Assembly: GCA_021772935.1 (NCBI GenBank)
Contig: JAJFLA010000046.1
Coordinates: 186,001-250,000, forward strand
Source of the DNA: Gammaproteobacteria bacterium
GTDB taxonomy: Bacteria; Pseudomonadota; Gammaproteobacteria; Xanthomonadales; SZUA-36
DNA: 64,000 bases
Direction of reading: 5' to 3'
Within the stretch, counting starts at the first letter, position 1, and the number at the start of each line of letters is the position of its first letter. Below, one piece after another: positions 6,275 to 49,512 of this stretch. Both the position numbers and the translations under genes were made by a program. Under the pieces are notes generated by a model, which was not told where the DNA came from, ran no database searches, and saw only the letters and a list, made by a program, of their open reading frames with translations.

Positions 6275-6805
6275 CTACAGTATCCCTCCCAGGAAAAACG
6301 CCGATAGCTCAGCGCGACCACTTAGCCCGGCCTTACGGTAGAGTACGTGGGCCTGCTGTTTGATCGATTGAAACGTTCCCCCTCTTAATTCGGCAATTTC
6401 CTTAAAACTCAGACCCTTCATAAGGTAAAACGCGATTTCCTTTTCCTTCGATGAAAAGTCCCATTGTGTGAGTTGTTTATCGATCGCAATTCTGAGCTCA
6501 TCAAGCAAGTTCTGTTCTTTGTCCTGCCAACGAGTGGTTTCTTCGCAGGCTTTTTCGAGATTTTTTTGCAAATCTTTTTCCAACCGTCGTGCAATTCGAA
6601 GCTGATCCCAAAAATAGACAGCACCTGCAACCGCAGCAAACATGATGATGAATTCGATAGTAACGTGAAAAACGGTGGCGCCAACAGCCAGATCATCGAC
6701 AATATCCCACACAATCAAAACGGCAACCAGAATAAAGAGGACCATGGGGACTACGAGTGCCGCAAGCCCGTGCTCAGTCGGTATTGTTCTAATTCTTCTA
6801 AGCAT
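6275..6805 (-). CDS. Membrane-anchored LuxR-type helix-turn-helix protein, copy 1
   Basis: 176 residues: two hydrophobic segments (about 15-35 and 45-65), a charged coiled-coil linker (RRLEKDLQKNLEKACEE) and a C-terminal LuxR/GerE-type HTH (SSKEKEIAFYLMKGLSFKEIA...SIKQQAHVLYRKAG). It is likely an inner-membrane one-component regulator whose DNA-binding domain faces the cytoplasm. RBS GGAGAGGG precedes the ATG. It lies directly downstream of the 12-haem cytochrome gene and is about 60% identical by eye to the protein at 16103-16633. What it senses and controls is unknown; the cytochrome cluster is the obvious candidate. Confidence 0.75.
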   Translation of the reverse strand: MLRRIRTIPTEHGLAALVVPMVLFILVAVLIVWDIVDDLAVGATVFHVTIEFIIMFAAVAGAVYFWDQLRIARRLEKDLQKNLEKACEETTRWQDKEQNLLDELRIAIDKQLTQWDFSSKEKEIAFYLMKGLSFKEIAELRGGTFQSIKQQAHVLYRKAGLSGRAELSAFFLGGIL

Positions 6806-6936: not shown

Positions 6937-7033
6937 AACCTTAGGGAAGCTCTGATCTATTCATGAAATCGTATCTCGCCTAAGGGCGCCTTCTCTTGGT
7001 GCAACCAGGATAAATCAGAGGTTCCTTAGGGTT
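6937..7033. repeat. Imperfect inverted-repeat element overlapping the multihaem gene stop
   Basis: The two ends form about 26 bp of imperfect inverted repeat: left end reads AACCTTAGGGAAGCTCTGAT, right end on the minus strand AACCCTAAGGAACCTCTGAT. The TAA stop of the multihaem cytochrome gene lies inside the right arm. It could be a small MITE-like repeat or act as a transcription terminator hairpin. Right-arm-like half copies occur at 46644-46659 and 56932-56946. Confidence 0.5.
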
Positions 7034-8837
7034 TGTAGTCCTCTCCATCATGTTTTTCTCCATGGCAGTTCAGATAGCAAGTGCCGGCGTACTGTCCATT
7101 GTCTATCCAGGTTGGCTCAGTAAACCCACCTTCGCCAGTAATCTCGAACGTTTGACCAGCAAAGCTGGAAGTGAGCAGGAAATTGATCAGATGTGGGTAG
7201 ACGGCCGAGCCATGCGGGTCGTGGCAGTTGATACAGGAGGTGTTTTCTTCAAGAACGTGTTTTTTATGGGGAAAAGAATCGTCGTTGAACAAGCTACCGC
7301 TGTCATGGCATTTAAAACAGAGATTGTCTGCAGCGTTATTAAAGCTGGACTGGGGGTCAAATTCATATCTCAAAGCAAGCATGCCTTCTTTACTGGAACC
7401 GTGTGGCCCAGCAGGGCCTGTACCACCCGCGGCAGGCGAGCTGCTGCTGCTGTGGCAATCACCACAAAAAATATGGCTTGTAGCGCGATTCAGGGGAATA
7501 TCATTTCGAAGACTGGGAACCTCGCTGTCATTGCTCGGGTTGTTGCTGGTAATCGGGTGATAGGAGAGTAATGCAGAGTTACTGGGATCAAGTTTGTTAC
7601 GCAGGTTGTAGACACCATCACTACGCGACATATTATAGGTCCTGGCAGTTGAACAGCGGCGGTAGCCACAGGCATGGTCCCCCGGCACACCATGACACTT
7701 GAAACAGACTTCGTACTCGTACCGCACTTCGGCTTGGACCGCGCCACCAGCAGTGATACCACTTATACCTGCAAGACTGCCATTGATGGAAGGTGCGAGC
7801 ATATGCACTGAGCCCATGGGGTTGACAGGGTTAAAGGAAATCATGGGAGCGGCAGGGCGCCCGTTACTGGCGTGTGGGTTGTGGCAATCCTCGCACTCAA
7901 CGTGCAACGGCATGCTAAGAGGGTTTTCATTCCGTGCCGCATCGTGGGCTATGCTGGGTGTTTGCTCCACCGGGTGGCGATAAAAATTTTGCAGATCACG
8001 CTGAATATTCTGGCTAGCAACACTGCCATCATGGCAGCGGTAGCAGGTTATTTCTTCGAGATCTTTTACCAGTCTTGCTGGCGTTGCAGCATCGTGTGGA
8101 GCGTGACAATTCATACAAGCGTTTTCTCTTACGTTTTGACCTTTCCAGGCAGGCTTGCGTTCAGACCAGGGGTCGGTACCTGCGGGGGCTGCAGTCGATG
8201 TTGCGTGTGAACTGCTTGCCCAACTCCAACCCGCCCCCCTATAGTTGTGGCAGCTTGTGCAAAGTTCTCCGTTCAATGTTGATTTTTGAAGGAATGGTGG
8301 AATGGTGTTGTTGTGTGCATCGTGGCAGGAGATACATTGGACCTCACCGTTGTTGAGTGGCAAATTCACGCTGTTGGGATTAGCGAGTTCCGGATCAGAT
8401 ATCAACAGACCACTGTCATAGATAATTCCGATCGGGTGGTCATTGGACAGGTCAGGACCGAGATCAGACCTGCCAGTCATGAATGTGTTGCTCAGGTCGC
8501 TCGCGGCCGGGTTGTTGCCAAGCATATCACCAAGCGCAATAGTGCCATCATGACAAGACAAACAAAGTACGGAGGATCCACCCGCTTGACCCGCAACCGC
8601 ATCCGACGTACTGCTTTGGTAGTTGATATACCCAACTGCACGCCGGTTCCACAAAGGTGCGTCTGGGGCGGCGCTGTGTGGCGTATGGCAAAAAACACAA
8701 ATTCGGTCCTCAGCCTGACTCCTGAATGGTCCAGGCCCGCTAACTGACAAATTGTGTGGTGTGTCTGCTACGTTGCCAGCGGTGAGAGCACCTGAAGTCA
8801 GCAGAAGACATACAGCTAAAGTCAAGCTTGCGCGCAT
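7026..8837 (-). CDS. Secreted multihaem c-type cytochrome, 11 CXXCH plus one CX3CH
   Basis: 603 residues with a Sec signal peptide (LTLAVCLLLTSGALTAG) and no lipobox. Haem-binding motifs in order: CVFCH, CLSCH, CISCH, CTSCH, CMNCH, CYRCH, CEDCH, CFKCH, CGDCH, CFKCH, CINCH and near the C-terminus CYLNCH, which has three residues between the cysteines. Many further HxxH/HP histidines can give bis-His ligation. The first part (CVFCHTPH, CLSCHDGTIALGD, LGPDLSNDHPI, CISCHDAHN) repeats the layout of the two tetrahaem proteins in this cluster, so the gene probably grew from such a unit. Last gene of the operon, 2 bases after the NHL lipoprotein. Likely extracellular or outer-surface electron carrier; RBS GGGAG. 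Confidence 0.9.
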   Translation of the reverse strand: MRASLTLAVCLLLTSGALTAGNVADTPHNLSVSGPGPFRSQAEDRICVFCHTPHSAAPDAPLWNRRAVGYINYQSSTSDAVAGQAGGSSVLCLSCHDGTIALGDMLGNNPAASDLSNTFMTGRSDLGPDLSNDHPIGIIYDSGLLISDPELANPNSVNLPLNNGEVQCISCHDAHNNTIPPFLQKSTLNGELCTSCHNYRGAGWSWASSSHATSTAAPAGTDPWSERKPAWKGQNVRENACMNCHAPHDAATPARLVKDLEEITCYRCHDGSVASQNIQRDLQNFYRHPVEQTPSIAHDAARNENPLSMPLHVECEDCHNPHASNGRPAAPMISFNPVNPMGSVHMLAPSINGSLAGISGITAGGAVQAEVRYEYEVCFKCHGVPGDHACGYRRCSTARTYNMSRSDGVYNLRNKLDPSNSALLSYHPITSNNPSNDSEVPSLRNDIPLNRATSHIFCGDCHSSSSSPAAGGTGPAGPHGSSKEGMLALRYEFDPQSSFNNAADNLCFKCHDSGSLFNDDSFPHKKHVLEENTSCINCHDPHGSAVYPHLINFLLTSSFAGQTFEITGEGGFTEPTWIDNGQYAGTCYLNCHGEKHDGEDYKP

Positions 8838-8839
8838 TT

Positions 8840-9844
8840 TTAATGCTCCCGGGGCAGGTACCTGAAGACCTGCACTCGTTGGTTATAGGAATCGGCCACA
8901 TAGATCAAATCTTCCAGCACCGCGATGCCGGTAGGTATCTGGAAAGTGCCAAGTTGCGTGCCACTGCCACCAAATGCCAGTAGAAACACACCTTGTTTAC
9001 TAAAAATTTGCACCTGATTTTTCAGAGCATCGACAACATAGATGTGCCCGTCGGAGTCGACTGCTACGCCTTTTGGCTGGGCAAAATGGCCCGAACCGTC
9101 ACCGTGTTTTCCAAAAGTGCTCAGGTGGTTACCCTCAGAACTGAAACTCTGAATGCGGAAATTCATCGTATCAGTGACCAGCAAGTGATCGTCAGCGAAG
9201 GCCAGGTGACTTGGGAAATTGAATTGCCCATCATGCTTGCCGCGTTCACCAATTCTAAATAACGGCTCACCGTCCTGGTCGAACACGAGCACGGTGTGCG
9301 CCAATGTATCTGCTGCGTAAAGACGTTGCCCAATCGGGTCATAGGTGAGGCTGGTTGGTCGTTGAAAGCCCTCAATGGTACGCAATAGCTTAAATCGTCG
9401 ATCCAGCATAAAGACCTTATGCAAACCGGAATCTGCGATTGCCAGCTTATCCCCCACAAAGGCAAGCCCAATGGGTGAACGTAACTTGATTTTCCCTACC
9501 CGATCCAGCTTTCTGTAGGTTTTGTTTTTTGTGTTGTACAGGTGTACTTCGGCTGCACCTGGATCAGCAACGGCCACCATGGAGTGGCTCAAGGCAATTG
9601 CGTAGGGGCGCGACATATGGCGGTCATCGCCACCCGCAAGGACCTTTTTCAACTTGCGGGAAAATGATTCATGCAGACCAAGATCTTGAGGTGTTCTGAA
9701 GGAGTTAACGAACTCGATCCGTGAGGGCTCGGGTGCTGCGGGCCAGGCCAAATTTAATCCAGAAGCTTCTGGCGGTGCTTCGGGGTTGGTCGTTGCACAA
9801 GCGGTGAGACATAGGGTCAATAGCAAGATGAATTGTCTGTTCAT
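8840..9844 (-). CDS. NHL-repeat beta-propeller lipoprotein, copy 1
   Basis: 334 residues from the ATG at 9844, which follows a GGAGG RBS lying inside the end of the barrel gene; stop and start share one base (TGATG). N-terminal lipoprotein signal with lipobox LTAC. The rest is a six-bladed NHL propeller with repeated units such as GQFNFPSHLAFADDHLLVTD, FAQPKGVAVDSDGHIYVVD and FQIPTGIAVLEDLIYVAD. The conserved N-terminal SRIEFVNSFRTPQDLG precedes the propeller. NHL genes sit beside multihaem cytochromes in other electron-exporting bacteria, so a scaffold or assembly role at the outer membrane is likely. Paralogue of the protein at 14149-15213. Confidence 0.85.
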   Translation of the reverse strand: MNRQFILLLTLCLTACATTNPEAPPEASGLNLAWPAAPEPSRIEFVNSFRTPQDLGLHESFSRKLKKVLAGGDDRHMSRPYAIALSHSMVAVADPGAAEVHLYNTKNKTYRKLDRVGKIKLRSPIGLAFVGDKLAIADSGLHKVFMLDRRFKLLRTIEGFQRPTSLTYDPIGQRLYAADTLAHTVLVFDQDGEPLFRIGERGKHDGQFNFPSHLAFADDHLLVTDTMNFRIQSFSSEGNHLSTFGKHGDGSGHFAQPKGVAVDSDGHIYVVDALKNQVQIFSKQGVFLLAFGGSGTQLGTFQIPTGIAVLEDLIYVADSYNQRVQVFRYLPREH

Positions 9845-11796
9845 CAAAACCTCCGGCTCAGGTTGAACATTACCCTGTTCTCGTTGGTCTCACGAGTGTT
9901 GATGGTACGGCGATTATGGTGATAACTGAGGTCCATGGCAATTTTTCGGTAGAGGAAACGTAAGGTTACACCGGCCATGAGGAACTGGTCTTCACGGCTG
10001 GTGCCGTTGCCTGAAATATCTTCATCAAGGCTTTTCCATGCACCCAGTGTGGGTCGAATTGAGAGACCGGTCAATGGTTGCCAGTTAAGTGCCAGTTCGA
10101 GGTTATACAAATCCGTTTTCAGACGACTGGTTTCGTTGAAAGACTCAAACATATTTAAGCTGATCAGGGTGCGAGTGTTAATGGGCCAACTAAGGAATTG
10201 CCGGTAAGTGAAGGTCGTCGACTTAAAATCACCGATCGTGTTGAGGTGCCGCTCTGCGCTCAAGAGTGTATCGAGTCCACCCATTTCCCAATGAAGCTCA
10301 ATATTAGTTATGGTGTCACGGTTGTTATTAAGAAAACTCTCGCCGGCACCCGATAACAGTGTATCGTCTGATTTGTTATCTCGATGGGAGAAGCGTAGCC
10401 AGTGAAAATTGATACTGATGTTATACCTTAAATGGGTGGTGGAGAATTGCTGTGATGGCAACGCCTGGGCCTTGTAGCTCACCAACAAGGTATCCCCACT
10501 TTCAATTTGGCCGCCGGGGACCACCTGTAACTGAGTAAGATCGTCAGTGAGCCTGATGATTGAATAGTCAAAATTCTGTGTGTATACCAGGGTACCATTT
10601 GGGTTGGTGACAATGATGCTGCTGTCAATGATGAAACGGCCGTCGAGGATCACGCTACCGATCAGGGTCGCTTCATGACGCTCATCGATGACTTCCACCA
10701 AACCCAACTTCGAATCCCGATCAGTCTCCTGGTAAGAAAAGCCCAATCCGGCAGTGACAGAAGCACCGAATAGTCCGTGTTTCTGGTAGTTGCTGTCTAG
10801 CCCCGCTCGCCACTGAGTTTGGTCTAATCTGTCTGAACGACGTGAGCTGGCGAACAGATTGGCTGAGGTCGTCAGGTTATCGTACAGCTGGTGCTGTAGC
10901 CTGAAATCGCCACTTTCTTCGGTGGTCTTGTTATCCTGAGTTACCGCGAAGTGGCGCAGGGAGCCCTGACTGAACACGTTGTCGGTATGCTGAATACGTG
11001 CGTTTTCTTCGATACTAAGACGTTTATTGGCGTTGAAGCCTGTACGGTCATAAAATTCTAATCTGGAACTCAATCGACTGTCATTGCCCCACTCGAAGCG
11101 GTGGTTGAGGTTGGCGCGGCTCAAATTAAAATTCTGGTCTCGGTCGGGTACCCGATCATCCATTGACTGTTGTTCGATGAGCAGATCCAATTTACTGCTG
11201 CGTCCTGTCAGGGTCAGTGTTCTGAGACTTTCATCACGTCTCGACAAAATATTGGTCCCGCCCGTCAGAAAATCCTGTTTGAGAGCACGTTCAGCATAGA
11301 TTAGTTGCATTGGAAAGGCGGTGTTTTTCCATCTGGCTGTAGCGGAGTGAGTTTCTATTTCACTGTCATAACGGCTTCCCAGTGAGCCCTGGTTGAGGCT
11401 CGTATTTCGCATGGTCAACAGGTCAAAGCCCACCGGCCCCGGTGTCTCTTGAAACAGGTTGAATTGGAACAGGTAACTGAGGATCCTGTCATTTCGGTTT
11501 TCCTTGACGGTGCCAAAATCAAGATTACCCCAGCTGTAAGCAGATTCTACTTCCAGCAGGAAACGGGCGATACCCGGATCCAGGCTGTAGGCCTCCTGTC
11601 TGATACGCAAGCCAGCTCTGAACTCGGTATCTCCCAAGTCACTGACCTGGTCGCTCCGGTCGGTGCCATCGAAGCTCAGCAACGCCTCGATATCAAGCGG
11701 GAATAAGGTCAGCTTATCCCAGGCCTGTACCTGCTCGTGTGTACCCACGAGTAGAATCAATGCCACAAACAAACAAACAAGATGCGCTTGTTTCAT
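9844..11796 (-). CDS. Outer-membrane beta-barrel protein of the cytochrome operon (porin-like)
   Basis: 650 residues from the ATG at 11796 (MKQAHLVCLFVALILLVG... signal peptide, cleavage near VQA). The mature part is made of alternating amphipathic strands, with no TonB plug domain and no CXXC, and ends in NLSRRF, the aromatic C-terminus expected of BAM-inserted barrels. An internal FIIDSSIIVTNPNG...GDTLLVSYKA segment resembles a soluble insert. Its place between periplasmic trihaem cytochromes and the secreted 12-haem cytochrome suggests it is the barrel of a porin-cytochrome conduit, as MtrB or OmbB are in other systems. No sequence match to those families can be claimed by eye. Confidence 0.7.
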   Translation of the reverse strand: MKQAHLVCLFVALILLVGTHEQVQAWDKLTLFPLDIEALLSFDGTDRSDQVSDLGDTEFRAGLRIRQEAYSLDPGIARFLLEVESAYSWGNLDFGTVKENRNDRILSYLFQFNLFQETPGPVGFDLLTMRNTSLNQGSLGSRYDSEIETHSATARWKNTAFPMQLIYAERALKQDFLTGGTNILSRRDESLRTLTLTGRSSKLDLLIEQQSMDDRVPDRDQNFNLSRANLNHRFEWGNDSRLSSRLEFYDRTGFNANKRLSIEENARIQHTDNVFSQGSLRHFAVTQDNKTTEESGDFRLQHQLYDNLTTSANLFASSRRSDRLDQTQWRAGLDSNYQKHGLFGASVTAGLGFSYQETDRDSKLGLVEVIDERHEATLIGSVILDGRFIIDSSIIVTNPNGTLVYTQNFDYSIIRLTDDLTQLQVVPGGQIESGDTLLVSYKAQALPSQQFSTTHLRYNISINFHWLRFSHRDNKSDDTLLSGAGESFLNNNRDTITNIELHWEMGGLDTLLSAERHLNTIGDFKSTTFTYRQFLSWPINTRTLISLNMFESFNETSRLKTDLYNLELALNWQPLTGLSIRPTLGAWKSLDEDISGNGTSREDQFLMAGVTLRFLYRKIAMDLSYHHNRRTINTRETNENRVMFNLSRRF

Positions 11797-11841
11797 TGTG
11801 TTGCGACTTTTGTGTGCACTGCACGGTAGATGAAACACTAT

Positions 11842-12213
11842 TCATTCCACGGGGGAAACATGACAGCGGTTACAGTTCTGAAGTGTGGCGCCAAAAGCCA
11901 GTTCACCATTATGGCAGGTACCACAAACTTTCCCTTCTTTCATCAAGTCCATGGTGACGGGAGTGGAGCCTTGCTTCATTTCAAACAGACTGTCATGGCA
12001 TGCATCGCAACGGTATTGAATTCGATGGACCCAGTGTTGAAAAACTGAGGGTGGAAATGACTCCGTTTCAACATCACCTTCCCGTGAATAGCGGATATCC
12101 CCAGGAGCAGTCCCCGCTTGGGCAGCAGTGGCCTGAATTACAAACAACATTAATACACAGCCGAGAATAGATTGTGTTAATTGTGTTTCTTTTTTTTTCA
12201 TTGTTAGTTTCAT
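11842..12213 (-). CDS. Periplasmic trihaem cytochrome c7-type protein
   Basis: About 123 residues from the ATG at 12213, the start chosen because it gives a normal Sec signal peptide (MKLTMKKKETQL...ATAAQA). Three haem motifs, CDACH, CGTCH and CNRCH, with the c7/c3-like framework F..WVH...CDACHDSLFEMK......MKEGKVCGTCHNGELAF...CNRCH. The gene lies 45 bases from the barrel start and 29 bases after the trihaem lipoprotein, in the same operon. Likely carries electrons across the periplasm to the outer-membrane barrel. The longer frame to 12240 has no better start. Confidence 0.85.
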   Translation of the reverse strand: MKLTMKKKETQLTQSILGCVLMLFVIQATAAQAGTAPGDIRYSREGDVETESFPPSVFQHWVHRIQYRCDACHDSLFEMKQGSTPVTMDLMKEGKVCGTCHNGELAFGATLQNCNRCHVSPVE

Positions 12214-12241
12214 ATCGCAGGCAAGGGTGCTTGTGACCATA

Positions 12242-12865
12242 TTACCTGTTGAGGTGACAACGTTTACACTGTTTCAAGGAAAAAGCAACACCGCCATGAC
12301 AGGCTCCGCAAGAGGCCCCTTTTTTCATCTGTTTCATACTGCTTGGATTTCTCTTGTAACGATACAGGCTTGCGTGACAATTTTTACAACCCAGCCAAAC
12401 GGTGTGTGCTGAGTGTGGAAAGTAGGCTTCGTTTTTGGGTTTTTCAGCGGGTATGAAAAAATCGTATTTAAAAGCAGCAGCTTCATGCGCGCTGGCGTCC
12501 ACACCGGTGCGTGGTCGGATCAGACCTTGGTTCAGGGCGGCTGACCAGTCTGTTTTACGCTTATAGTCCTGTGGCAACATTGACTTCGCTTCTTCCCAGT
12601 CCAGAACCGCCTCAAGGGCTGGCCGGTCAGCGTTGGGGTCAGGCGTAAATGCCAGGGAAGGGGACTTGTTACCAGCTGTTAAAAGACCGCTTTCTGTCGT
12701 TGATAGTTGCTCGGTGGCTGTTGACTCTGGTTTACGTGGTGGCACATCGAACAGTAGGGACATTGCATTGTTGCTGCAGGCAGATAAAATCAAGCAAGCA
12801 AAAAGAATCAGGGCAACTTGAGTTGCCCTGATTCCTAAGCTTAGATCGTTTGTCCAAATCTGCAC
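12242..12865 (-). CDS. Trihaem cytochrome c7-type lipoprotein
   Basis: 207 residues; GTG start. A signal sequence ends in lipobox ILSAC, so the mature protein is lipid-anchored. A ~110-residue unfamiliar region (residues about 30-130, with LDWEEAKSMLPQDYKRK) precedes a C-terminal c7-like domain with CKNCH, CGACH and CKRCH. The C-terminal domain is clearly related to that of the next gene (HTVWLGCKNCHASLYRYK versus HRIQYRCDACHDSLFEMK), suggesting tandem duplication. It starts 19 bases after the tetrahaem gene. A role in a trans-envelope electron conduit is inferred from context. Confidence 0.85.
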   Translation of the reverse strand: MQIWTNDLSLGIRATQVALILFACLILSACSNNAMSLLFDVPPRKPESTATEQLSTTESGLLTAGNKSPSLAFTPDPNADRPALEAVLDWEEAKSMLPQDYKRKTDWSAALNQGLIRPRTGVDASAHEAAAFKYDFFIPAEKPKNEAYFPHSAHTVWLGCKNCHASLYRYKRNPSSMKQMKKGASCGACHGGVAFSLKQCKRCHLNR

Positions 12866-12884
12866 AGGACAATGTTGTACTAAG

Positions 12885-13490
12885 TCACTTGATATGACAA
12901 GTCAGGCACATAGCACTACCATTGTTGGACATACGCAGGAAGTCACCATTCGAGTCATCATGTACAGAGTGGCAAGTGGCACATTCAACATTATCATTCG
13001 TAAACAACGGCAGAGTACCGACCTTTTTGGGCGTACCCGCAGCAGCATTGAACGCCGTATCCGCTGTTATATCATAGCTGATGGAGATCGGATGATCGTC
13101 GCTCAGATCAGGCCCTATCTTTTTGTTGCCAGTTATAAAATCTGCAGCACCACCGGGTCCGCCATTGAACTGATCAGTGGCAATGGTGCCATCATGGCAG
13201 CTCAAACAAGCCAGTGATGTACCTTGCGGTCCAGTCGCATCTATGGTCATGTCAATTGTCGGGCTGCTATACATGGTAAAAGTGCTTTGAACAGGGAGAC
13301 TACGGTTCCATAGTGACACCGAATTCGCTGACGCATTATGTGGTGTATGGCAAAATATGCAAATTTTATTGGTCCCAGCGGGATCAGATAAATCATGTTT
13401 AGAATTTGTGATCGTTGTTTGTGAAAAAGCTGCACCAGACACCAATAAAAGGGCTGGTATGGAAAGTCTGAATAAGTTCTTGCTTTTCAT
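12885..13490 (-). CDS. Exported tetrahaem c-type cytochrome, copy 1
   Basis: 201 residues with signal peptide (MKSKNLFRLSIPALLLVSGAAFS) and four haem motifs CIFCH, CLSCH, CATCH and CLTCH. RBS AGGAGAAGGA precedes the ATG. First gene of the six-gene operon running to 7026. Motif blocks KHDLSD, CIFCHTPHNA, LWNRSLP, CLSCHDGTIA, IGPDLSDDHPISI, NVECATCHSVHDD and the terminal CLTCHIK are shared with the copy at 15459-16058 and with the start of the 12-haem protein. Probably a soluble periplasmic or extracellular electron carrier. Confidence 0.88.
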   Translation of the reverse strand: MKSKNLFRLSIPALLLVSGAAFSQTTITNSKHDLSDPAGTNKICIFCHTPHNASANSVSLWNRSLPVQSTFTMYSSPTIDMTIDATGPQGTSLACLSCHDGTIATDQFNGGPGGAADFITGNKKIGPDLSDDHPISISYDITADTAFNAAAGTPKKVGTLPLFTNDNVECATCHSVHDDSNGDFLRMSNNGSAMCLTCHIK

Positions 13491-13533
13491 CTTCGATTCC
13501 TTCTCCTAAGAGGTTGGTTCTTGTAGGTCCAAA

Positions 13534-13563
13534 TTAGGTCTAACACTATTAGGTCTAACACTA
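13534..13563. repeat. Perfect 15-bp tandem duplication
   Basis: TTAGGTCTAACACTA occurs twice head to tail between the cytochrome operon start and the FNR-like palindromes. It may be a regulatory direct repeat or simple slippage. Confidence 0.8.
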
Positions 13564-13758
13564 TCAATCGTGGTCAATCCAGATGCCAAATCCACTGGAT
13601 CAGCCCCGTATACTATAATTCTGTGTGCCCCTGTTACTTTTACCAGATGTTTCCAGAACTTCTGACAGGGATTATCTGAATCTTGTGAAGATGAATCAAC
13701 GGATAAACTACGAAATCTGGCTTGAACTGGTGGGTTTGTTGACTTGGATCAAGTGTTT

Positions 13759-13791
13759 TTGACCTAGGTCAATAAAATTGACCTAGGTCAA
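13759..13791. promoter_or_regulatory. Two tandem FNR/CRP-like palindromes
   Basis: TTGACCTAGGTCAA occurs at 13759-13772 and again at 13778-13791, centres 19 bp apart, so both lie nearly on the same helix face. Each is a perfect palindrome of the form TTGAC-N4-GTCAA, close to the FNR/DNR family consensus TTGAT-N4-ATCAA. The sites are about 270 bp upstream of the tetrahaem start (minus strand). An FNR/DNR-like regulator responding to oxygen or nitrogen oxides is the simplest reading. Confidence 0.55.
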
Positions 13792-14148
13792 TAGCGGTCG
13801 CATGTATTGTTCATCCCGAATTTAAATAGAAAGAGCCAATACTCCTACCAATTCAGCAAAAGTTTCCACTACCTCAAGAGCACGTAAATGTGTCTCACGT
13901 TATCCAGAAATCGAGCTTATGGATAGTTACATGGATGCCATCGCTTCTGCCACGACGCAAACAGCTGAAACCCGAAAACGTATGTCTGAATGGGTGTTTA
14001 TATATGTACAATCACGCGTTCAGCGCCCTGAAACAGAACTGGCTGTTTTCAGGATGGTTGGGGCTCAGCCTTTGAGGGCGCGATCAGGAACCTGAGCATT
14101 ACCAATGCGACAGCCAATGGTTGACTGCCAAGCGGGTTGTGTCCAGGC

Positions 14149-15213
14149 CTACTCAGTTACTGATTCGGGGAGGAATTCGAACATCTGTATACGTCGATTA
14201 TATTGGTCAGCGATAAATATCCGGTTATTATTATCCACATGGGCGCCAGCCGGTAGATAGAATCCACCAGGCCCAGTGCCGCTACTTCCAACAACCAATA
14301 ACAGTGTGCCTTGTGGGTCGTAAATCTGGAAGTTATTGAATGAGGCGTCAATTGTGTAGATGTGTCCCTCGTTATCCACGCCTATACCTTTCAAGCGGTT
14401 GAAATTACCCGGTCGGTCGCCTACCTCACCGAAGGCGTTCACCACAGCGCCATCCGGCTCCAGTACCTGGACACGGAAATTCAACGTATCTGCCACATAC
14501 AAACGGCCGCTGGCATCAATTGCGATGTTGGTTGGTGTATTGAAATTACCAGGCTCACCACCAAGCTCGCCAATGGTATTAACGACAGTTCCCTGCGGGT
14601 TGAATACTACAATCTGACTGCGCTTTGAATCCACCACGTAGAGCCGCTGGCTCGCATTGTTAAACACCATGCCGACGGGGGATGACAGAACTTCCGGTCC
14701 CCCGAATGCATTGCGGTAGTTGCCGTCAACATCATATACGACGACCCGGTGAGTTCCGACATCACTGACATACACGTTGCCCGCTGTGTCGCTGGTTACG
14801 CCAACCGGTTTGCTCAACGTCCCCAGTCCGTCGGTACCCCAAAACGATACATTCTTTTGCTTGAGGTCAAACACCACCAGTCCAGCGATGCCAGTATCGG
14901 CAACAAAAACGCGTCCCTTTGAATCGCTATGCACACCATAGGGTTTGACCAAACTAGGCTTATCTGTCTTTTCTTCGCCCATCAGTAAGTCACGGATGCT
15001 TTGTTGCTTATCACCCGCTACATCATCGAGTGATTGTAAGTCACCGAGGTAACGAATACGTGCCTGCTCTGGTGGCGGGGGCCATACCATCTCCTTTACT
15101 TCCGCCGGTGGGGCAGATGTCGGGGTGGCGCATCCTGTAAGCAAAGTAAATGTTGCAACAATTAGTAATGCAAGCAGAGGTATATTAAAAAGGCGGGTGA
15201 TTAATAAAGCCAT
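14149..15213 (-). CDS. NHL-repeat beta-propeller lipoprotein, copy 2
   Basis: 354 residues from the ATG at 15213. Signal sequence with lipobox LLTGC, a Pro-rich linker (TSAPPAEVKEMVWPPPPEQ), then RIRYLGDLQSLDDV and six NHL blades, e.g. LSKPVGVTSDTAGNVYVSD, FNTPTNIAIDASGRLYVAD, FNRLKGIGVDNEGHIYTID and FYLPAGAHVDNNNRIFIAD. It shares this plan with the protein at 8840-9844. It is divergent from the tetrahaem gene at 15459 and stands apart from the main operon. Likely located on the periplasmic face of the outer or inner membrane; partner unknown. Confidence 0.85.
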   Translation of the reverse strand: MALLITRLFNIPLLALLIVATFTLLTGCATPTSAPPAEVKEMVWPPPPEQARIRYLGDLQSLDDVAGDKQQSIRDLLMGEEKTDKPSLVKPYGVHSDSKGRVFVADTGIAGLVVFDLKQKNVSFWGTDGLGTLSKPVGVTSDTAGNVYVSDVGTHRVVVYDVDGNYRNAFGGPEVLSSPVGMVFNNASQRLYVVDSKRSQIVVFNPQGTVVNTIGELGGEPGNFNTPTNIAIDASGRLYVADTLNFRVQVLEPDGAVVNAFGEVGDRPGNFNRLKGIGVDNEGHIYTIDASFNNFQIYDPQGTLLLVVGSSGTGPGGFYLPAGAHVDNNNRIFIADQYNRRIQMFEFLPESVTE

Positions 15214-15458
15214 ATTCTTGGTCACTGTCAGTTTGAAAATAGGAAAAATGAATTATGACATGATCAAATGAAAAATCCCTTGTTTAAAATCCTGATCAAT
15301 CCAAAAAATGATCTGGATCACTTATCCTGTTATTTTTTCAGTCAATTACTGGCATTCCTTTCTCTATCTATATCGTTCTTCTGGCTTTAAGATTTAATCC
15401 TCGCAGAAGGACTATTCAGCTTCAAAAGTTTTTTTTCAGGCCAGGGAGGGACTGTAGA

Positions 15459-16058
15459 ATGAAGAACTTGAATCGATTGATACTCGCAGTTACCGTGCTG
15501 ATGTCTGCTGCTGCCGATGCAAGGCAAATTGACAATACCAAACATGACCTCTCTGGCGTCAACTCCAATGATGGCGGCAATGTCTGTATCTACTGTCATG
15601 CACCCCATAACGCCAACAAGGTCAATGTGCCGCCCTGGAACCGTGCGTCGCCAACGGGTCCTTTCACCATGTACGCCAGTCCGACAATTGATATGACTAT
15701 AGCTGGCTCCCCACAAGGCAATTCCTTAGCCTGCTTGAGCTGCCATGATGGCACCATAGCCGTTGATCAGCTATTTGGAGACCCCTGGGGTAGTGATGGC
15801 AGCAAAACCCTCAGTGGCAGCATGCTGATTGGTACTGATCTGAGTGACGATCACCCGATTTCTATTCGGTATGATCCAACTGCAGATAGCGCTTTTGCAG
15901 TGGCAGTAGGTTCACCAGCAAGGGTTAATGGTTTGCCATTGTTTGAGAATAATGTCGAATGTGCTTCATGTCATTCTGTACACGACAACTCGATTTCACC
16001 CTTCTTGCGGAAATCCAACGCGGACGACAGTCTTTGCCTGAGTTGCCATATCAAGTAA
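15459..16058 (+). CDS. Exported tetrahaem c-type cytochrome, copy 2
   Basis: 199 residues; RBS GGGAGG. Signal peptide MKNLNRLILAVTVLMSAAADA, then CIYCH, CLSCH, CASCH and CLSCH. It is a clear paralogue of the protein at 12885-13490 (NTKHDLSG, PHNANKVNVPPWNR, FTMYASPTIDMTI, CLSCHDGTIAVDQ, LSDDHPISI, terminal CLSCHIK). It is the only cytochrome gene here on the plus strand and is read alone, convergent with the second LuxR-type gene. Probably an electron carrier interchangeable with copy 1 but separately regulated. Confidence 0.88.
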   Translation: MKNLNRLILAVTVLMSAAADARQIDNTKHDLSGVNSNDGGNVCIYCHAPHNANKVNVPPWNRASPTGPFTMYASPTIDMTIAGSPQGNSLACLSCHDGTIAVDQLFGDPWGSDGSKTLSGSMLIGTDLSDDHPISIRYDPTADSAFAVAVGSPARVNGLPLFENNVECASCHSVHDNSISPFLRKSNADDSLCLSCHIK

Positions 16059-16102: not shown

Positions 16103-16633
16103 TTACACAATCCTATCCAGGAAAAATGCCGATAGCTCAGTACGACCACCAAGCCCGGCCTTACGATAGAGCAAGTGGGCCTGCTGTTTGACCGATATAT
16201 AGGTTCCACCTTTTAATTCGGCGATTTCCTTCAAACTCAAGCCCTTCAAAAGGTAAAACGCCATCTCCTTTTCCTTCGCCGAATAATTCCATTCTGTGAG
16301 TTGCTTATCGATTACAACTCTGAACTCATCGAGTACGCTCTGTTCATTTCCCTTCCAATTGCTAGTCTCTTCGCTGGCTTTTTCAGGATTTTGTTGTAAA
16401 TCTTTTTCCAACCGCCGTGCAGTTCGAAACTGACCCAAAGACCAGAAAGCACCTGTTATTGCAGCCAGCATGATGATGAATTCGATCGCAAGATGAGTAG
16501 CCGTGGTACCTGCAACCAGATCAATGGCAATATCCCATACAACTAAAACGGTAACCAAAACAAATAGAATGGTGGGAAACAGGCGTTCTGTAAATTTTGG
16601 ATCAGCTGGTTTTATCTCAATATTTTCAGTCAT
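16103..16633 (-). CDS. Membrane-anchored LuxR-type helix-turn-helix protein, copy 2
   Basis: 176 residues from the ATG at 16633 (MTENIEIKPAD...), the start that aligns with copy 1. Same plan: two hydrophobic helices, the linker TARRLEKDLQQNPEKASEE and a C-terminal HTH with YSAKEKEMAFYLLKGLSLKEIAEL and QQAHLLYRKAGLGGRTELSAFF. The relic of a multihaem cytochrome gene lies directly upstream, the same order as copy 1 and the intact gene. Function inferred as transcriptional regulation; target unknown. Confidence 0.75.
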   Translation of the reverse strand: MTENIEIKPADPKFTERLFPTILFVLVTVLVVWDIAIDLVAGTTATHLAIEFIIMLAAITGAFWSLGQFRTARRLEKDLQQNPEKASEETSNWKGNEQSVLDEFRVVIDKQLTEWNYSAKEKEMAFYLLKGLSLKEIAELKGGTYISVKQQAHLLYRKAGLGGRTELSAFFLDRIV

Positions 16634-16734
16634 ATAGTACTGTCTCCGTAGTGCAAGGCTCACCACTATTCATCCATTTTTATGAATGACCTCAATGATA
16701 TTGTCATCATAGTCCTTGTTTCCCGGCAAACGCA

Positions 16735-40147: not shown

Positions 40148-42910
40148 TTAATCAGATAGTGCGTCCCAGTTAATGATCGTATTCCAGACCAGACGGAAAT
40201 CACCTCGGTTCATGTCGCGATGGATGCCATTGAAATTGTAGCTCACGATATGTCCCTGCCCCGTCGGTGTGTCAATGATGGCGGGATGACCGGTCAACTC
40301 ATTCTCTCCACGGATACCACCACTGACAACCATGTCTCCCTCACCGCCCCAGCTCAGGACGACGTGACGTTGGTCAAGCGGACCGCTCAGGCAAGAAGTG
40401 CAATAGGCCATTGTCAACCAGCGTCGCGGTGTGTCATAGACGGGTAAGTTGGTGCGGAACACGGCTGTTTCTTTACCATAACCATAAGCGATGGGGTGAT
40501 TGATTTGTTTGAAGGTGGCGCGTAATTCTGCGCCCGGTGTGAAAACTGTTGATGCCTTGGCACGGGGTACGTTTCGAACCAGCCCACCCTCCAACGCAAG
40601 CGTAGTGCCCGTACCGAGGGTAATTAGCACACCGCCGCTCTCAACAAATTTCTGGATTTGAGCCAGCCCTTCATAGCCCGGCCCACCCGTGATGTCATCG
40701 GACATCACCGGTATGCCGAGGCTGGGGTATTCCGGCGAACTACGAAAAGGAACCGGACCATTGGTCGCCGCAATCCCGTGAATTTGCCCGGCAAGTTCAA
40801 GCCGTGAAAACGGTCCGTAAACAATGACGTCCAGCTTGTCTTTCAACGCCCCGGCACGCACATCCTCATCCCGCAAATAGGTGTAGGGGATGTGCTGTTG
40901 ATCAAAAACATAACGAATCCATCCCATCATATCGGTATCGGCCCATGGCACCCATAAACCGATTCGTGGCACAGACGCTGCATGGTAAGGCACAGCAGGT
41001 GACTGACGGATAGATTGAAAATCCAGCGCCAATTCATCACTTACCGCAGTGATCGCATCTCCAAGTTCACGTGAAGACCGCCCCTCGGGGGTCGAAACAA
41101 TCCATGACCCTGGTGGGTAAGTGACTTTGCCCTGGCTGAAAGCTTGCTCTGCGATATCCACCTTGAAGGCTTTTAGCCTGTAACGCGCAGCCAGCAGGGA
41201 CTGTTGACCCTGTTCCCGTAGCAGATATAACGGACCTTCGCCCTGCACTTTACCGGTCGGCGCAGCGTCAACGCCAAGTAACTCACTGGATACCGTCTTA
41301 ACCCGTTCATCTTCTATGCGCACGGCGGTTACGTCAAAACCCACCGGGTAAGCCCATGACACATCATCGTAAGGTAGTTGTTCGTATTCGTCTGGAAAGC
41401 TCTGCGGCTCGAGTACATCCAGGGCGTAGTTGCGGTAGGGCTGATCCAGTTTGACGAGATAATCACCCCGCTTGAAATCCCCCTCGGCCAGGGACAGTGC
41501 AGCGGATAACACCCCCACTTCGATCTGCTGACTTCGCAGGCGGTTGATCATTTGCGCCACCCGCAGCCGATCTGGTTGCTGGGCCGGAATCACATAGGCA
41601 TACGGTTTTTCTTCACTGCCTTTACGCCATGAGTTGTAGCTGGTGCGGTAGAAATCCCGCAGCATCTCTTTAGCATGTTTGGCCGACCAATCGAGTATCG
41701 CCAAAGCGCCTGTTTGTTGATAATTCACGTTGTCACGCATGGACCAGCTAAAAGTTGGGTCGGGCGGCCACGGCCGGTACCACTCACGGCTTAAACTATC
41801 GTCATCCGCATGGCGCAGCACTGTTTCCGCCGTCGCGTTACCAAAAGTCTCATAACCACGCCCGATGGCGTTGTGGTTGATGGCAACAGAGTCGAGATAA
41901 TGGTGGCCAAAGCCGTCACCAAAGTTCCAGGTCCAGACTCCCGGCATCCCCATGGCACTCATCGTGGTCATCTCATGGAAGCTCATCTCCAGCCAGCGTG
42001 AGGTCACAATGGGATCCATGTGGGGATTGTAGGGCCCCGTGCCATTCCAGCTGAGCATCAGGGAAATTGCTTCATGCAAATCGTGCACTACAACGGGGTG
42101 GTAATCGAAAAACATCTTATGCACCGCGCGAGTAGCGGCAAAAGCCTTCTGATGTGCATCACGATTGATATCAACAAATACGTAGCGTCCCCAGTAGGGC
42201 GGACTTTGACGCGGTAAACTATCAAAGTCAGTTTTGCCCTTCAGGTACTGATAAAACCAATCAGTTACTTTGTCGCGTCCATCGGGTTCTGAAACCGGGT
42301 TGATCAACACCAACAGGTTCTCACGTATGGCCTTGATCATTGGCTGCTCAGAAACGGCCAGTCGATACACCAATTCCATACACATCTCACCGCTGCCGGT
42401 CTCATCAGCGTGCAGATTACAGTTGAAGTAATAAGCTGGGCGGGCGTTGACTATAATCTCTTCTGCCATCGCAGGACTGGTCTGGCGTGGGTCTGCCAGT
42501 GCCGCATTTGCGGCCTTGAGTCGATCCAGATCACGGATGCCGTTCTCGTCAGCAATAACGGCCAGGACGATCTCCCTTCCCTCTTCTGATTCGCCAATAG
42601 TTTCAACATGGACACGTGAAGAACTCATCGCAACCTGACGCACGTAATCAACGATCTTCGCCGAGTGTGTCAATTCTCCCTGTGCACCAATAACATGACC
42701 CAGAACACTCGTGGGCGAGGCTACCGTGGCAGATTCTGGTACATACGCAACCCATGGGCTGAGAAAACGTGGCTCGGTAGTAAATTCAGCGATGGCCTTC
42801 ACAGAGCCGGGCTCGGCAACGTCCGGTGACGCATCAACACCTGGCTCCAGGGCGAACGCGGAGTTAAGCATAGGGCTAAGAATTAGGGCCAATAACGCTG
42901 TGCGATTCAT
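40148..42910 (-). CDS. M14-family zinc carboxypeptidase, secreted
   Basis: 920 residues with signal peptide (MNRTALLALILSPMLNSAFA). The M14 zinc site HxxE is in NCNLHADETGSGE, with downstream NPVSEPDGRDK and the third ligand region VVHDLHEAISL. The C-terminal half contains a class-I-amidotransferase-like segment (GLWVPWADTDMMGWIRYVFDQ...VIVYGPFSRLEL...GGVLITLGTGTTLALE), a layout shared with large M14 proteins of marine bacteria. Acts on extracellular or periplasmic peptides. Start overlaps the stop of the TauE/SafE gene. Confidence 0.88.
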   Translation of the reverse strand: MNRTALLALILSPMLNSAFALEPGVDASPDVAEPGSVKAIAEFTTEPRFLSPWVAYVPESATVASPTSVLGHVIGAQGELTHSAKIVDYVRQVAMSSSRVHVETIGESEEGREIVLAVIADENGIRDLDRLKAANAALADPRQTSPAMAEEIIVNARPAYYFNCNLHADETGSGEMCMELVYRLAVSEQPMIKAIRENLLVLINPVSEPDGRDKVTDWFYQYLKGKTDFDSLPRQSPPYWGRYVFVDINRDAHQKAFAATRAVHKMFFDYHPVVVHDLHEAISLMLSWNGTGPYNPHMDPIVTSRWLEMSFHEMTTMSAMGMPGVWTWNFGDGFGHHYLDSVAINHNAIGRGYETFGNATAETVLRHADDDSLSREWYRPWPPDPTFSWSMRDNVNYQQTGALAILDWSAKHAKEMLRDFYRTSYNSWRKGSEEKPYAYVIPAQQPDRLRVAQMINRLRSQQIEVGVLSAALSLAEGDFKRGDYLVKLDQPYRNYALDVLEPQSFPDEYEQLPYDDVSWAYPVGFDVTAVRIEDERVKTVSSELLGVDAAPTGKVQGEGPLYLLREQGQQSLLAARYRLKAFKVDIAEQAFSQGKVTYPPGSWIVSTPEGRSSRELGDAITAVSDELALDFQSIRQSPAVPYHAASVPRIGLWVPWADTDMMGWIRYVFDQQHIPYTYLRDEDVRAGALKDKLDVIVYGPFSRLELAGQIHGIAATNGPVPFRSSPEYPSLGIPVMSDDITGGPGYEGLAQIQKFVESGGVLITLGTGTTLALEGGLVRNVPRAKASTVFTPGAELRATFKQINHPIAYGYGKETAVFRTNLPVYDTPRRWLTMAYCTSCLSGPLDQRHVVLSWGGEGDMVVSGGIRGENELTGHPAIIDTPTGQGHIVSYNFNGIHRDMNRGDFRLVWNTIINWDALSD

Positions 42911-43704
42911 ACACTTTCCTTTTCAGTATCAACTCCATAGCTAATTTGGAAGTCGCCGATGGCTGAACTTACCGGCTCTACATAGGCATGGTGATGCTCG
43001 CCATGCCTGTTTGTTACCATCAGAAGAACACTTAGTACGGCCAGTAAGATCAGTGCAGTACCCATTAGCTTCCTGGTCCATCGGTCACTTAGCAACAGAC
43101 TAAGCGCGGGTGCAGCGAGACTCATGCCTAACATGGAAGGCAGGGTGCCAAAACCAAATGCCAGCATGACTATAGCACCTGTAAACGCTGAACCAGCCGC
43201 AGAGGCGGTCAGCAACACACTGTAGACCAAACCGCATGGCAACAAACCCCAACACAAACCCAGCAATAAGCGCCCTGCCCCACCAGGCAAACTGGATGCA
43301 CGAACCGCCAGCGGTAATACATGCCGCCAAATTTTTGTACCCATTCGTTCGATACCGCCGAGCAACTGCCAGTTAAACAAAAACTGCAAGCCGATAAGAA
43401 AGATCATCACGGCGGTTAGAAGACGCAATATCATGCTCCATTGCGGCAGGTTCAATGCCTGACCCACGCTTGCCAGTATCCAGGCCGAAACCAGACCCAA
43501 AATGGCGTAACTCAATAACCTACCCAAATTGAACAAGAGTGCTGAGCTGGCACGGTTTTTTTCACTCCCCTGTTGACCGCTGCTTACAGGCAAGCTACCC
43601 AACCCCACGGCGATACCACCACACATACCAAAACAATGCCCACTACCCAATAAACCCACAAAAAATGCGGTTAACACAGCGGACAGATCAAAAACCGGGT
43701 TCAT
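42907..43704 (-). CDS. Sulfite exporter TauE/SafE-family membrane protein of the cco cluster
   Basis: 265 residues, six to seven membrane helices, with the Cys-rich HCFGMCGG motif near the N-terminus typical of the SafE/UreH-like branch that accompanies ccoNOQP-GHIS in many proteobacteria. It may transport copper or support cytochrome oxidase assembly; the name TauE is by family only. It overlaps ccoS by 4 bases. Confidence 0.85.
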   Translation of the reverse strand: MNPVFDLSAVLTAFFVGLLGSGHCFGMCGGIAVGLGSLPVSSGQQGSEKNRASSALLFNLGRLLSYAILGLVSAWILASVGQALNLPQWSMILRLLTAVMIFLIGLQFLFNWQLLGGIERMGTKIWRHVLPLAVRASSLPGGAGRLLLGLCWGLLPCGLVYSVLLTASAAGSAFTGAIVMLAFGFGTLPSMLGMSLAAPALSLLLSDRWTRKLMGTALILLAVLSVLLMVTNRHGEHHHAYVEPVSSAIGDFQISYGVDTEKESV

Positions 43705-43898
43705 TTGTCTTCTTCCGCTATATCAGAGTTTTGATCATCATCCAGCGGCGGTGGTTTTTGGTCATCGTCAAGCACGACACTCCAACCCTGTGATTCGAGA
43801 TCGTCAAACTGACCGGATTTGATCGCCCACAATAATGCCCAGACAGCGACTGCAAGTAATAAAATCGCCAGCGGTATCAATACGTATAACATGCTCAT
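43701..43898 (-). CDS. ccoS: Cbb3 oxidase maturation protein CcoS
   Basis: 65 residues from the ATG at 43898, which overlaps the ccoI stop (ATGA). One membrane helix (LYVLIPLAILLLAVAVWALLWAI) followed by KSGQFDDLESQGWSVVLDDD, the diagnostic CcoS motif. Required for insertion of cofactors into cbb3 oxidase in model bacteria. Confidence 0.92.
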   Translation of the reverse strand: MSMLYVLIPLAILLLAVAVWALLWAIKSGQFDDLESQGWSVVLDDDQKPPPLDDDQNSDIAEEDK

Positions 43899-46336
43899 CG
43901 CATGACTGCCCTGCGGTGAATGCTGGTGGCTTGGTTTGTTGTTCGTTTTGCCAGACGACCAGAATTTAACACCACCAACAGAGAGCTCAAGGACATACCC
44001 AGTGCCGCCATCCACGGCACGATCATACCGGCGGCGGCAAACGGCACCGCCAGCAGGTTGTAAGCCAGCGCCCAAAGCAGGTTCTGCCGAATCACAGCTT
44101 GCGTTTTACGACCGGTTTCGAGCACGTTTTTCACATTAAGCAGAGAAAGGCCAGTCAGTATAAAATCAGCCGTGCTGTTAGCCAGCTCGCTTGCGCCACT
44201 TACGGTCATGGAAACATCAGCCACAGACAGCACCGGTGCATCATTGATACCGTCACCCACCATCAGAACGGTTTTACCTTGCGCTTGTAAAGATTCCAGG
44301 TATTCCATTTTCATTTGCGGGTTTTGTTCCGCATACCATGTTCTGATGCCCGTACGTTGCGCCACCGAAGCAACGGCCTGATGGTGGTCACCAGAGAGAA
44401 TAATCAACTCCAGTCCGCTCGCTTGCAACGCAGCAATGGTTTCAGCGGCTGCGTCCCTCAAGCCGTCATCCAGGTCAAAACGTGCGATCCATCCTGATTC
44501 ATCTGTGAGCCATACCCTGCCGAGAGTGGTCACCAAATCAATGACATTAACGTCGGTAAAAGTAGCGTTACCCAGGCGATAGCTGACATTATCCACCCTG
44601 CCCTCAACCCCATTTTCATAGTTTCTGACATCATTAATCGCGTCACGTCTGACCTGAACACCTGAAAAGGCCTTCGCAACCGGATGTGAAGAATCAAGTT
44701 CCAGCAGGGCTGCTATCCGTGAAACGGTTTCTTCGTTGAAGCCTTCACGTTCCGGGTTAATAACGGTGTTCACAATCGATGGCGACCCTGTCGTCAGGGT
44801 GCCTGTTTTATCAAACACTATCGTACCTACACCACTTAAAACCTCCAGTGCCGCACCGCGTGTTAATAACACGCCCTGCTCAAGCAGTGCCCGGCTGGAA
44901 GATGCGATAGCTGCAGGTGTGGCCAGCGACAAAGCACATGGACAACTGATGACCAGGACCGCAAGGGTCGCCGGGAATAACATAGAAAGATCAGTCAGCA
45001 ACCACCACGCTGCGGTAAGGCCGGCAACCGTCAGGACAACAGCCACAAACCAACCGGCGTAACGCTCTGAGAGTCGCGCGTAATGGCTTCGATGTGTCTG
45101 TGACTTCAACAACATCCGCCCCATCACTGAGACGGTAGAATCGCCCGGATCTTTGCTTACCTCCACTTCTACAGTCTGGGATTGGTTGATGCTACCCGCT
45201 ATCACCTTATCACCGACTCGTTTTGCGACGGGTCTTGATTCTCCAGTCAACAGGGCTTCGTTAGCTTCGGTTCCACCCTTGATAATCATGCCGTCGGCCG
45301 GAAACGTCTGCCCCGCCCTCACTCTGACTTGGTCTGTTCTACGCAAATCGGTGGCAGGGACTTGCTGCGTTTCTTCGTCCCTGATCAATTCCGCCCATTC
45401 GGGCAACAGACGGGCGAGTGCCAGGCCAGTCTGTAAATTGCGATGACGGATAACCAACTCTGCATACCTTCCCAGAGACAGAAAAAAAATAAACATAACG
45501 ACTGAGTCAAAATAAACATGACCGTTGCCGCTCAAAAAATTGATACAACTCATGATGAATGCAATGGAAATAGCCAGCGCCACCGGCACATCCATACCCA
45601 CCCTGCGATTGGACAAACTACGCCATGCACTGGTGTAAAAGACCTTGCCTGAATAGAACAAAACTGGCGTTGTTACCATCAAGCTGACCCACTGCAAAAA
45701 CCGCTCAGAACCTTCGGAAATCCCCATGGAATCACCAGCGTACAAGGCAACTGCATACATCATGACCTGCATCATACCCAGACCGGCGACACCGAGACGT
45801 TTAAGTGCGCTACGGCGTTCTTGTTGTCTGCCCATGGCTTCTGCGCCTTCCAGCGGCAGGTGTGGGCGGTAGCCGATGGCCGATAAAATGGCAGCGATTT
45901 TACTCAACCGCAGCTTCTCTGGCTGCCAGTTGATACGCACAAAACCCGTGGTTACATCCACCTGTACCTGATCAATACCCTGGCGTGCTTCCAACTGGCT
46001 CCTGATTAACCATGCACAGGCCGCACAACGTATGCCTTCCACCTGTAGCAACAACTCGTAGCGAGCATTTTTAAGCTGGCTACCCCAGAGTGAATGGCGT
46101 TCATCAAAGCGCTTCCATGATGCCTCAATCCCGGCATCTTCAACGGCGGGCTTGATAGCATTTTCGGTACGGAATTGATAATAGCGCGACTGGCTGGACC
46201 GCAATATCAGCGTGGCAACAGCTTCACAACCGCTACAGCAAACTGGCTGCGGTTGCCCTTCTGCTTCAACTGTAAGATTGCAATTGGATGGAACGGGTTC
46301 TCCGCAATGAAAACAGAACCGCGTGTTTTCAGTCAT
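43895..46336 (-). CDS. ccoI: Copper-translocating P1-type ATPase CcoI
   Basis: 813 residues from the ATG at 46336 (MTENTRFCFHCGEP), 14 bases past the ccoH stop. N-terminal cysteine motifs CFHCG and CCSGCE, heavy-metal-associated domain IRCAACAW, eight membrane helices with CPC in VISCPCALSL, phosphorylation motif DKTGTLT and hinge MVGDGINDAPVL. Supplies copper for the cbb3 oxidase active site. The frame extends to 46423 but overlaps ccoH. Confidence 0.94.
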   Translation of the reverse strand: MTENTRFCFHCGEPVPSNCNLTVEAEGQPQPVCCSGCEAVATLILRSSQSRYYQFRTENAIKPAVEDAGIEASWKRFDERHSLWGSQLKNARYELLLQVEGIRCAACAWLIRSQLEARQGIDQVQVDVTTGFVRINWQPEKLRLSKIAAILSAIGYRPHLPLEGAEAMGRQQERRSALKRLGVAGLGMMQVMMYAVALYAGDSMGISEGSERFLQWVSLMVTTPVLFYSGKVFYTSAWRSLSNRRVGMDVPVALAISIAFIMSCINFLSGNGHVYFDSVVMFIFFLSLGRYAELVIRHRNLQTGLALARLLPEWAELIRDEETQQVPATDLRRTDQVRVRAGQTFPADGMIIKGGTEANEALLTGESRPVAKRVGDKVIAGSINQSQTVEVEVSKDPGDSTVSVMGRMLLKSQTHRSHYARLSERYAGWFVAVVLTVAGLTAAWWLLTDLSMLFPATLAVLVISCPCALSLATPAAIASSSRALLEQGVLLTRGAALEVLSGVGTIVFDKTGTLTTGSPSIVNTVINPEREGFNEETVSRIAALLELDSSHPVAKAFSGVQVRRDAINDVRNYENGVEGRVDNVSYRLGNATFTDVNVIDLVTTLGRVWLTDESGWIARFDLDDGLRDAAAETIAALQASGLELIILSGDHHQAVASVAQRTGIRTWYAEQNPQMKMEYLESLQAQGKTVLMVGDGINDAPVLSVADVSMTVSGASELANSTADFILTGLSLLNVKNVLETGRKTQAVIRQNLLWALAYNLLAVPFAAAGMIVPWMAALGMSLSSLLVVLNSGRLAKRTTNQATSIHRRAVMR

Positions 46337-46349
46337 ACGCACAGGCTCT

Positions 46350-46631: not shown

Positions 46632-46643
46632 ACTTTATGCCCC

Positions 46644-46659
46644 TTCAGAGGCTCCCTAG
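46644..46659. repeat. Half-repeat TCAGAGGCTCCCTAG carrying the ccoG stop
   Basis: Matches the right arm of the 6937-7033 element and the copy at 56932-56946; the minus-strand stop codon TAG falls at the same place in each. Confidence 0.4.
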
Positions 46660-48388: not shown

Positions 48389-48412
48389 CTGTACTGTATC
48401 TCTTTTAGACGT

Positions 48413-49511: not shown

Positions 49512-49512
49512 T

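Follow-up and report, generated by a model that had tools for sequence, protein, structure and literature searches.

The stretch of DNA analyzed here, referred to as the window, spans 64,000 nucleotides of a gammaproteobacterial genome (GenBank GCA_021772935.1, contig JAJFLA010000046.1, positions 186,001 to 250,000). It encodes a multiheme cytochrome operon that may reveal how a cell connects to a cytochrome nanowire. Analysis of the open reading frames (ORFs) placed six genes, A through F, on the minus strand, with transcription running from position 13490 to 7026. Successive genes are separated by 19, 1, and 3 base pairs (bp), a TGATG overlap (D/E), and 2 bp. Owing to these short spacings and the overlap, co-transcription of A–F is very likely, and the six-gene operon of the original prediction stands. 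Gene A (12885–13490) encodes a 201-amino acid (aa) tetraheme cytochrome with a signal peptide, a candidate OmcE-like filament subunit. Genes B (12242–12865, 207 aa) and C (11842–12240, 132 aa) encode c7-type triheme proteins; B is a lipoprotein (lipobox LSAC), and C carries a signal peptide and is probably periplasmic. The 664 codons of D (9844–11838) specify an outer-membrane β-barrel of ~28 strands, E (8840–9847) encodes an NHL β-propeller lipoprotein (NHL1; lipobox LTAC), and F (7026–8837) encodes a 603-aa cytochrome with 12 hemes. Matches to Pfam and NCBIfam were far above chance (Paired_CXXCH, 3.5e-30; Cytochrome_C7, 3.5e-17; nanowire_3heme, 1.6e-22; NHL, PF01436, 2.5e-28). They identify A and F as doubled-CXXCH cytochromes, B and C as members of the c7-type triheme family TIGR04257 (4.2e-18 and 1.6e-22, respectively), and E as an NHL propeller.

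The unit extends beyond the six genes to which it had originally been confined. Gene G (14149–15225, minus strand), 658 bp upstream of A, encodes a second NHL lipoprotein (NHL2; PF01436, 2.4e-29; lipobox LTGC). Beyond it lies the divergent gene H (15459–16058, plus strand), which encodes a second OmcE-like tetraheme cytochrome with 57% identity to A. H occupies the same position in a related locus (L008), and an NHL2-type gene adjoins the tetraheme gene in most relatives. G and H are members of the same unit as A–F, and G is part of the conserved module.

By sequence, the products of A and H are homologues of OmcE, the filament-forming nanowire cytochrome of Geobacter. A phmmer search of the PDB aligned residues 5–201 of A with the OmcE filament of Geobacter sulfurreducens (7tfs; E 4.1e-31) and nearly the whole chain with 9yuq, an entry of 16 chains (E 1.5e-25). 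In addition to four CXXCH motifs, A contains exactly four other histidines, all invariant in the eight homologues compared (8/8). These observed motifs are what a fully bis-His tetraheme cytochrome requires, and the corresponding ligation is predicted. The original prediction had counted the four hemes correctly and overlooked the nanowire homology. A may itself form filaments. In G. sulfurreducens, omcE is predicted to be monocistronic (PMC1829397), whereas the OmcE-like gene here shares an operon with a barrel conduit. OmcE-like genes are paired in some of the related loci.

Gene F encodes a composite protein in which an OmcE-like N-terminal head overlaps an MtrA-like ten-heme wire, an arrangement that had escaped notice when the protein was described as a 12-heme secreted cytochrome. 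The heme count itself was correct and comprises 11 CXXCH motifs and one CX3CH site. The latter, the 12th (C587-YLN-C591H), is present in 50/50 aligned homologues and in 79 of the 80 related loci described below. F has a plain signal peptide and no lipobox. The head (approximately residues 7–199) is 36% identical to A (E 2e-32), and profile comparison related it to the A family (E 3e-53); it also matches 7tfs (E 6e-47). In an hhalign comparison with two true MtrA proteins encoded by this genome, residues 162–543 aligned colinearly (probability 98.8, E 1.5e-16), with hemes 3–11 of F matched to hemes 2–10 of MtrA. In VIA, a structure model of F superposed on MtrA (PDB 6r2q, chain A) over 237/265 residues (Z 10.0, root mean square deviation 3.9), including ten heme sites (hemes 2–11). 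OmcE ranked second (Z 7.3), and two other CXXCH-rich multiheme proteins, serving as controls, reached Z 3.5 and 3.2. Against the MtrA/DmsE model TIGR03508, F scored 61.5 bits, under the cut-off of 192.2 bits; judged from these profiles, F is homologous to MtrA/DmsE but lies outside that subfamily. The PDB sequence table labels 6r2q chain A "Cystathionine beta-synthase," a misleading name for MtrA.

The product of D was modeled by AlphaFold2 from a 48-sequence alignment as a confident outer-membrane barrel (mean predicted local distance difference test [pLDDT] score, 90.3; predicted template modeling score, 0.78), which upholds the barrel originally proposed. The model has ~28 long strands and a small domain inserted near residues 395–458. 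The ATG at 11796 is the more likely start. D matched no Pfam or NCBIfam family and, as had been noted, contains no CXXCH. The 50 Foldseek matches listed were outer-membrane barrels, and the top TM-score among them (0.43/0.44) belonged to MtrB (6r2q chain B). D gave no match to the MtrB/PioB model TIGR03509 at E 0.01, whereas the same genome's own MtrB reached 4e-126. Comparison of D with that MtrB by hhalign returned a probability of 2.5. We therefore read the likeness of D to MtrB as one of similar size, not of shared family, and membership of the operon in the MtrCAB family is rejected on the barrel. The 50 rows listed by VIA for D were generic outer-membrane proteins (Z 12–16), MtrB not among them, and they were not used to assign D to a family.

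The two small cytochromes encoded between A and D match GSU1996 (PDB 3ov0; E 2.6e-33 for B and 8.1e-47 for C), and B also matches PpcA, weakly. Both GSU1996 and PpcA are periplasmic electron carriers in Geobacter. These alignments place B and C with proteins of the PpcA/GSU1996 type.

Beyond the window, we examined the distribution of the module by a profile search with the 12-heme alignment over 84,980 species genomes. This search succeeded, retrieving at least 551 relatives, of which 80 loci were kept; a scan of genome contigs with the window's barrel alone gave no matches. The 80 loci derive from Pseudomonadota (including Thiodiazotropha and tubeworm symbionts), Thermodesulfobacteriota, Myxococcota, Acidobacteriota, Nitrospirota, Nitrospinota, Planctomycetota, Verrucomicrobiota, Bacteroidota, Ignavibacteriota, Chlorobiota, Calditrichota, and others. 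A core set comprising an OmcE-like subunit, an NHL protein, a barrel, and the 12-heme protein recurs in at least 10 phyla. Among the 60 loci with enough flanking sequence, 52 encode a barrel, 50 an OmcE-like protein, and 47 a barrel together with OmcE-like and NHL proteins. In 49/67 loci, the gene immediately upstream of the F homologue encodes an NHL protein. The NHL protein, which had been taken for an extra component, is part of this recurring set. In the F tree, the triheme form of the gene before the barrel is clustered but needs five changes. F is present in 7/39 genomes of the window's own family, and a match to F at E 1e-60 or better was found in 22/369 genomes of a class sample. This patchy spread is consistent with acquisition by transfer or with recurrent loss.

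Several loci depart from the window's layout. In a genome of the same genus (L013), the module lacks the triheme genes and has extra eight-heme proteins and a third NHL gene downstream of the 12-heme gene; L066 has a similar layout. Just beyond the cluster in L009, on the opposite strand (12316–15965), lie genes for a 762-aa, 13-heme F homologue and a 501-aa NHL protein. L073 (4194–8938) encodes a 483-aa, seven-heme protein matching the triheme family and a 934-aa barrel, both larger than their counterparts in the window.

Among described systems, the nearest to the operon is Uet (undecaheme electron transfer), a complex of 'Ca. Tenderia electrophaga' that is also known from Gallionella (PMC10734462, PMC5371394). 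Uet consists of tetraheme UetA, the peptidyl-prolyl isomerase (PPIase) UetB, barrel UetC, triheme UetDEG, NHL proteins UetHI, and 11-heme UetJ (PMC10734462). A tetratricopeptide repeat (TPR) gene, UetF, is apparently co-transcribed with the three triheme genes, and these genes are highly expressed on the cathode (PMC5371394). Since no named Tenderia sequence occurs among the 80 loci, we relied on the published gene lists and on two Uet-like clusters, L144 and L146 (7110–18001). These clusters encode a PPIase, a barrel, four triheme proteins, an NHL protein, and an 11-heme protein of ~800 aa, with two genes in the place of the TPR gene that lack a Pfam match where scanned. The genome with L146 is of the same genus and contains the window-type cluster L008 as well.

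The window operon matches the Uet gene set in its tetraheme, barrel, triheme, NHL, and large cytochrome genes, and with L146 it shares an OmcE-like tetraheme protein, an F homologue, and a distantly related barrel (hhalign probability of D with L146/L144-type barrels, 96.7). No rotamase was found among window ORFs of ≥150 aa between 1 and 29 kb (two small antisense ORFs were left unscanned), whereas L144 and L146 encode one, and no TPR-type gene occurs between A and F. The window operon has two triheme genes rather than the three or four of Uet, and the gene order differs. The large cytochrome of L146 (~800 aa) lacks the CX3CH site, whereas F is shorter and has it as a 12th heme site. Given a related gene set with distantly related barrels, and the lack of PPIase and TPR genes, the window operon is a sister type of Uet. 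The suggestion that it may be a new type was therefore too strong, and NHL proteins are regular components of Uet and of the window type alike. What is new here is most likely a variant of the porin-cytochrome conduit that carries its own OmcE-type subunit; the Uet relative was already known.

Other systems resemble the operon in part. MtrCAB and MtoAB likewise combine a barrel with an MtrA-like multiheme wire, but the window barrel lies outside the MtrB/PioB family, there is no MtrC, and F is larger and bears an OmcE-like head. The comparison with MtrCAB made earlier is thus apt as an analogy and fails as a family assignment: the family model recognizes the true MtrB proteins encoded by this genome, but not D. 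In OmbB-OmaB-OmcB, the OmcB component is a 12-heme lipoprotein; F has 12 heme motifs but no lipobox and so does not qualify as a 12-heme surface lipoprotein. A locus of Geoalkalibacter ferrihydriticus (Ga0056053_02426-02431) encodes an MtoA homologue, an OmcE homologue, and two NHL proteins (PMC12016550). By description alone, these match F, A, E, and G, but no barrel is described, and the locus also includes a putative quinol cytochrome (PMC12016550). The OetABI conduit of syntrophic sulfate reducers, reported with OmcS/OmcX filaments (PMC10553843), likewise places conduit genes alongside proposed nanowire genes. Compared by description, it differs in naming OmcX, OmcS, and Apc2a instead of OmcE and in that OetB is a surface lipoprotein (PMC10553843). 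A literature search retrieved no paper that joins an OmcE-like gene, a barrel, and a composite 12-heme protein as one module, a weak negative given that the primary papers on Uet, OmcE structure, and OmcS assembly were outside its reach.

The host genome provides further context. It encodes two complete MtrA-MtrB conduits above the NCBIfam cut-offs (L149, 13543–16646, and L150, 7412–10495, on contigs C44 and C39) and four heme-copper oxidase-type subunits, one of which belongs to the cbb3 oxidase in the window. Searches of the genome gave no match to RuBisCO or to a NapC/CymA-type quinol dehydrogenase. On these grounds, the host looks equipped for extracellular electron exchange, with the operon as its third conduit, and it is probably a respiring heterotroph. 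Autotrophic electron uptake via the Calvin cycle is unlikely, as RuBisCO was not found. The cbb3 oxidase and its assembly genes (DsbD-like, copper ATPase, FixG, CcoP, and CcoN) occupy positions 42907–51542 of the window.

The route that electrons take into the cell from an extracellular cytochrome filament has been described as not well understood (PMC10553843). We consider it probable that the operon's products form a trans-outer-membrane electron conduit serving an OmcE-type cytochrome filament. That it encodes a porin-cytochrome conduit for extracellular electron transfer, as originally proposed, is well supported by the modeled barrel, the periplasmic-type triheme proteins, the large cytochrome, the likely co-transcription, and the two further MtrAB pairs in the host. 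In such a conduit, B and C would carry electrons to or from the periplasm, and D would hold and insulate the MtrA-like wire of F across the membrane. A, and possibly H, would polymerize outside as a nanowire. The head of F, shaped like a filament subunit, could form the joint between conduit and wire, and the NHL lipoproteins E and G may act as scaffolds or caps at the membrane. Electrons could flow in either direction along such a path. A more specific and more tentative possibility is a pan-bacterial machine that couples an OmcE-type nanowire directly to the outer membrane. The MtrA-like wire of F would run through the barrel, and the OmcE-like head of F would start the filament as its first subunit or seed. 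If true, this would explain the connection between cells and cytochrome nanowires.

Some points weigh against the proposed conduit. The model of F, folded without hemes, reached a pLDDT of only 75. The lack of a NapC/CymA match bears on the link to the inner membrane. A further difficulty is orientation: MtrA is positioned with heme 1 in the periplasm and heme 10 outward, and if F sat in D with the same orientation, its OmcE-like head would face the periplasm and not the filament. This leaves three options: a reversed F, contact of the head with B and C and of the filament with the C-terminal heme, or a position of F outside D.

The last of these options recurs in a reading that we regard as doubtful, in which lipoprotein B, along with C, occupies the barrel, leaving F wholly outside as a surface cytochrome or terminal filament cap. 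The OmcE-like head would suit a cap, B is a lipoprotein encoded beside C and D, and the gene preceding that of the barrel most often encodes a small cytochrome (five-heme in 26 loci, three-heme in 8, others in the rest). However, this small cytochrome varies by lineage, and in 7 loci an NHL or heme-free gene replaces it while F and D persist. Three hemes are also few for crossing a membrane, and the MtrA homology belongs to F.

Homology to OmcE is no proof of filaments, and A could instead be a non-polymerizing surface cytochrome, in which case the operon would be an ordinary Uet-like conduit without a nanowire. This seems unlikely in view of the exact ligand set shared by all eight homologues of A and of the closest solved relative, which was deposited as a nanowire. 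Quite improbable is a role for the barrel as an export or assembly pore for the OmcE-like subunit, with the other cytochromes and the NHL proteins aiding maturation. An eight-gene block for nanowire secretion and maturation reported next to OmcS (PMC12977616) offers a precedent; most loci contain OmcE-like genes and β-propellers, and the former are sometimes paired. An export pore is at odds with the MtrA-like character of F, with the resemblance of the triheme partners to electron carriers, and with the absence, among the ORFs scanned, of the PPIases found in Uet-like clusters. A soluble non-respiratory pathway, which the original prediction had named as a refuting outcome, is rejected in view of the barrel, the lipoproteins, and the neighborhood.

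A conduit serving an OmcE-type filament remains the preferred reading. Filament-to-cell wiring becomes directly testable with a conserved operon whose products include a homologue of a filament subunit, a barrel, and a cytochrome homologous to OmcE as well as to MtrA. The operon can also serve to mark electron exchange linked to nanowires in phyla such as Planctomycetota, Bacteroidota, Verrucomicrobiota, and Nitrospirota and in animal symbionts such as Thiodiazotropha.

Two paralogous genes, each possibly part of the unit, bracket the cytochrome cluster. A putative membrane-anchored helix-turn-helix (HTH) regulator is encoded downstream of F (6275–6805, minus strand) and has a homologue beside the L008 cluster. 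Its paralogue at the opposite edge (16103–16666, minus strand; 60% identity) is likewise a putative regulator, matching the LIC13292-family regulator model NF047608 at 8.4e-17, below the family cut-off. In both, the N-terminal segments are hydrophobic and the C-terminus is HTH-like.

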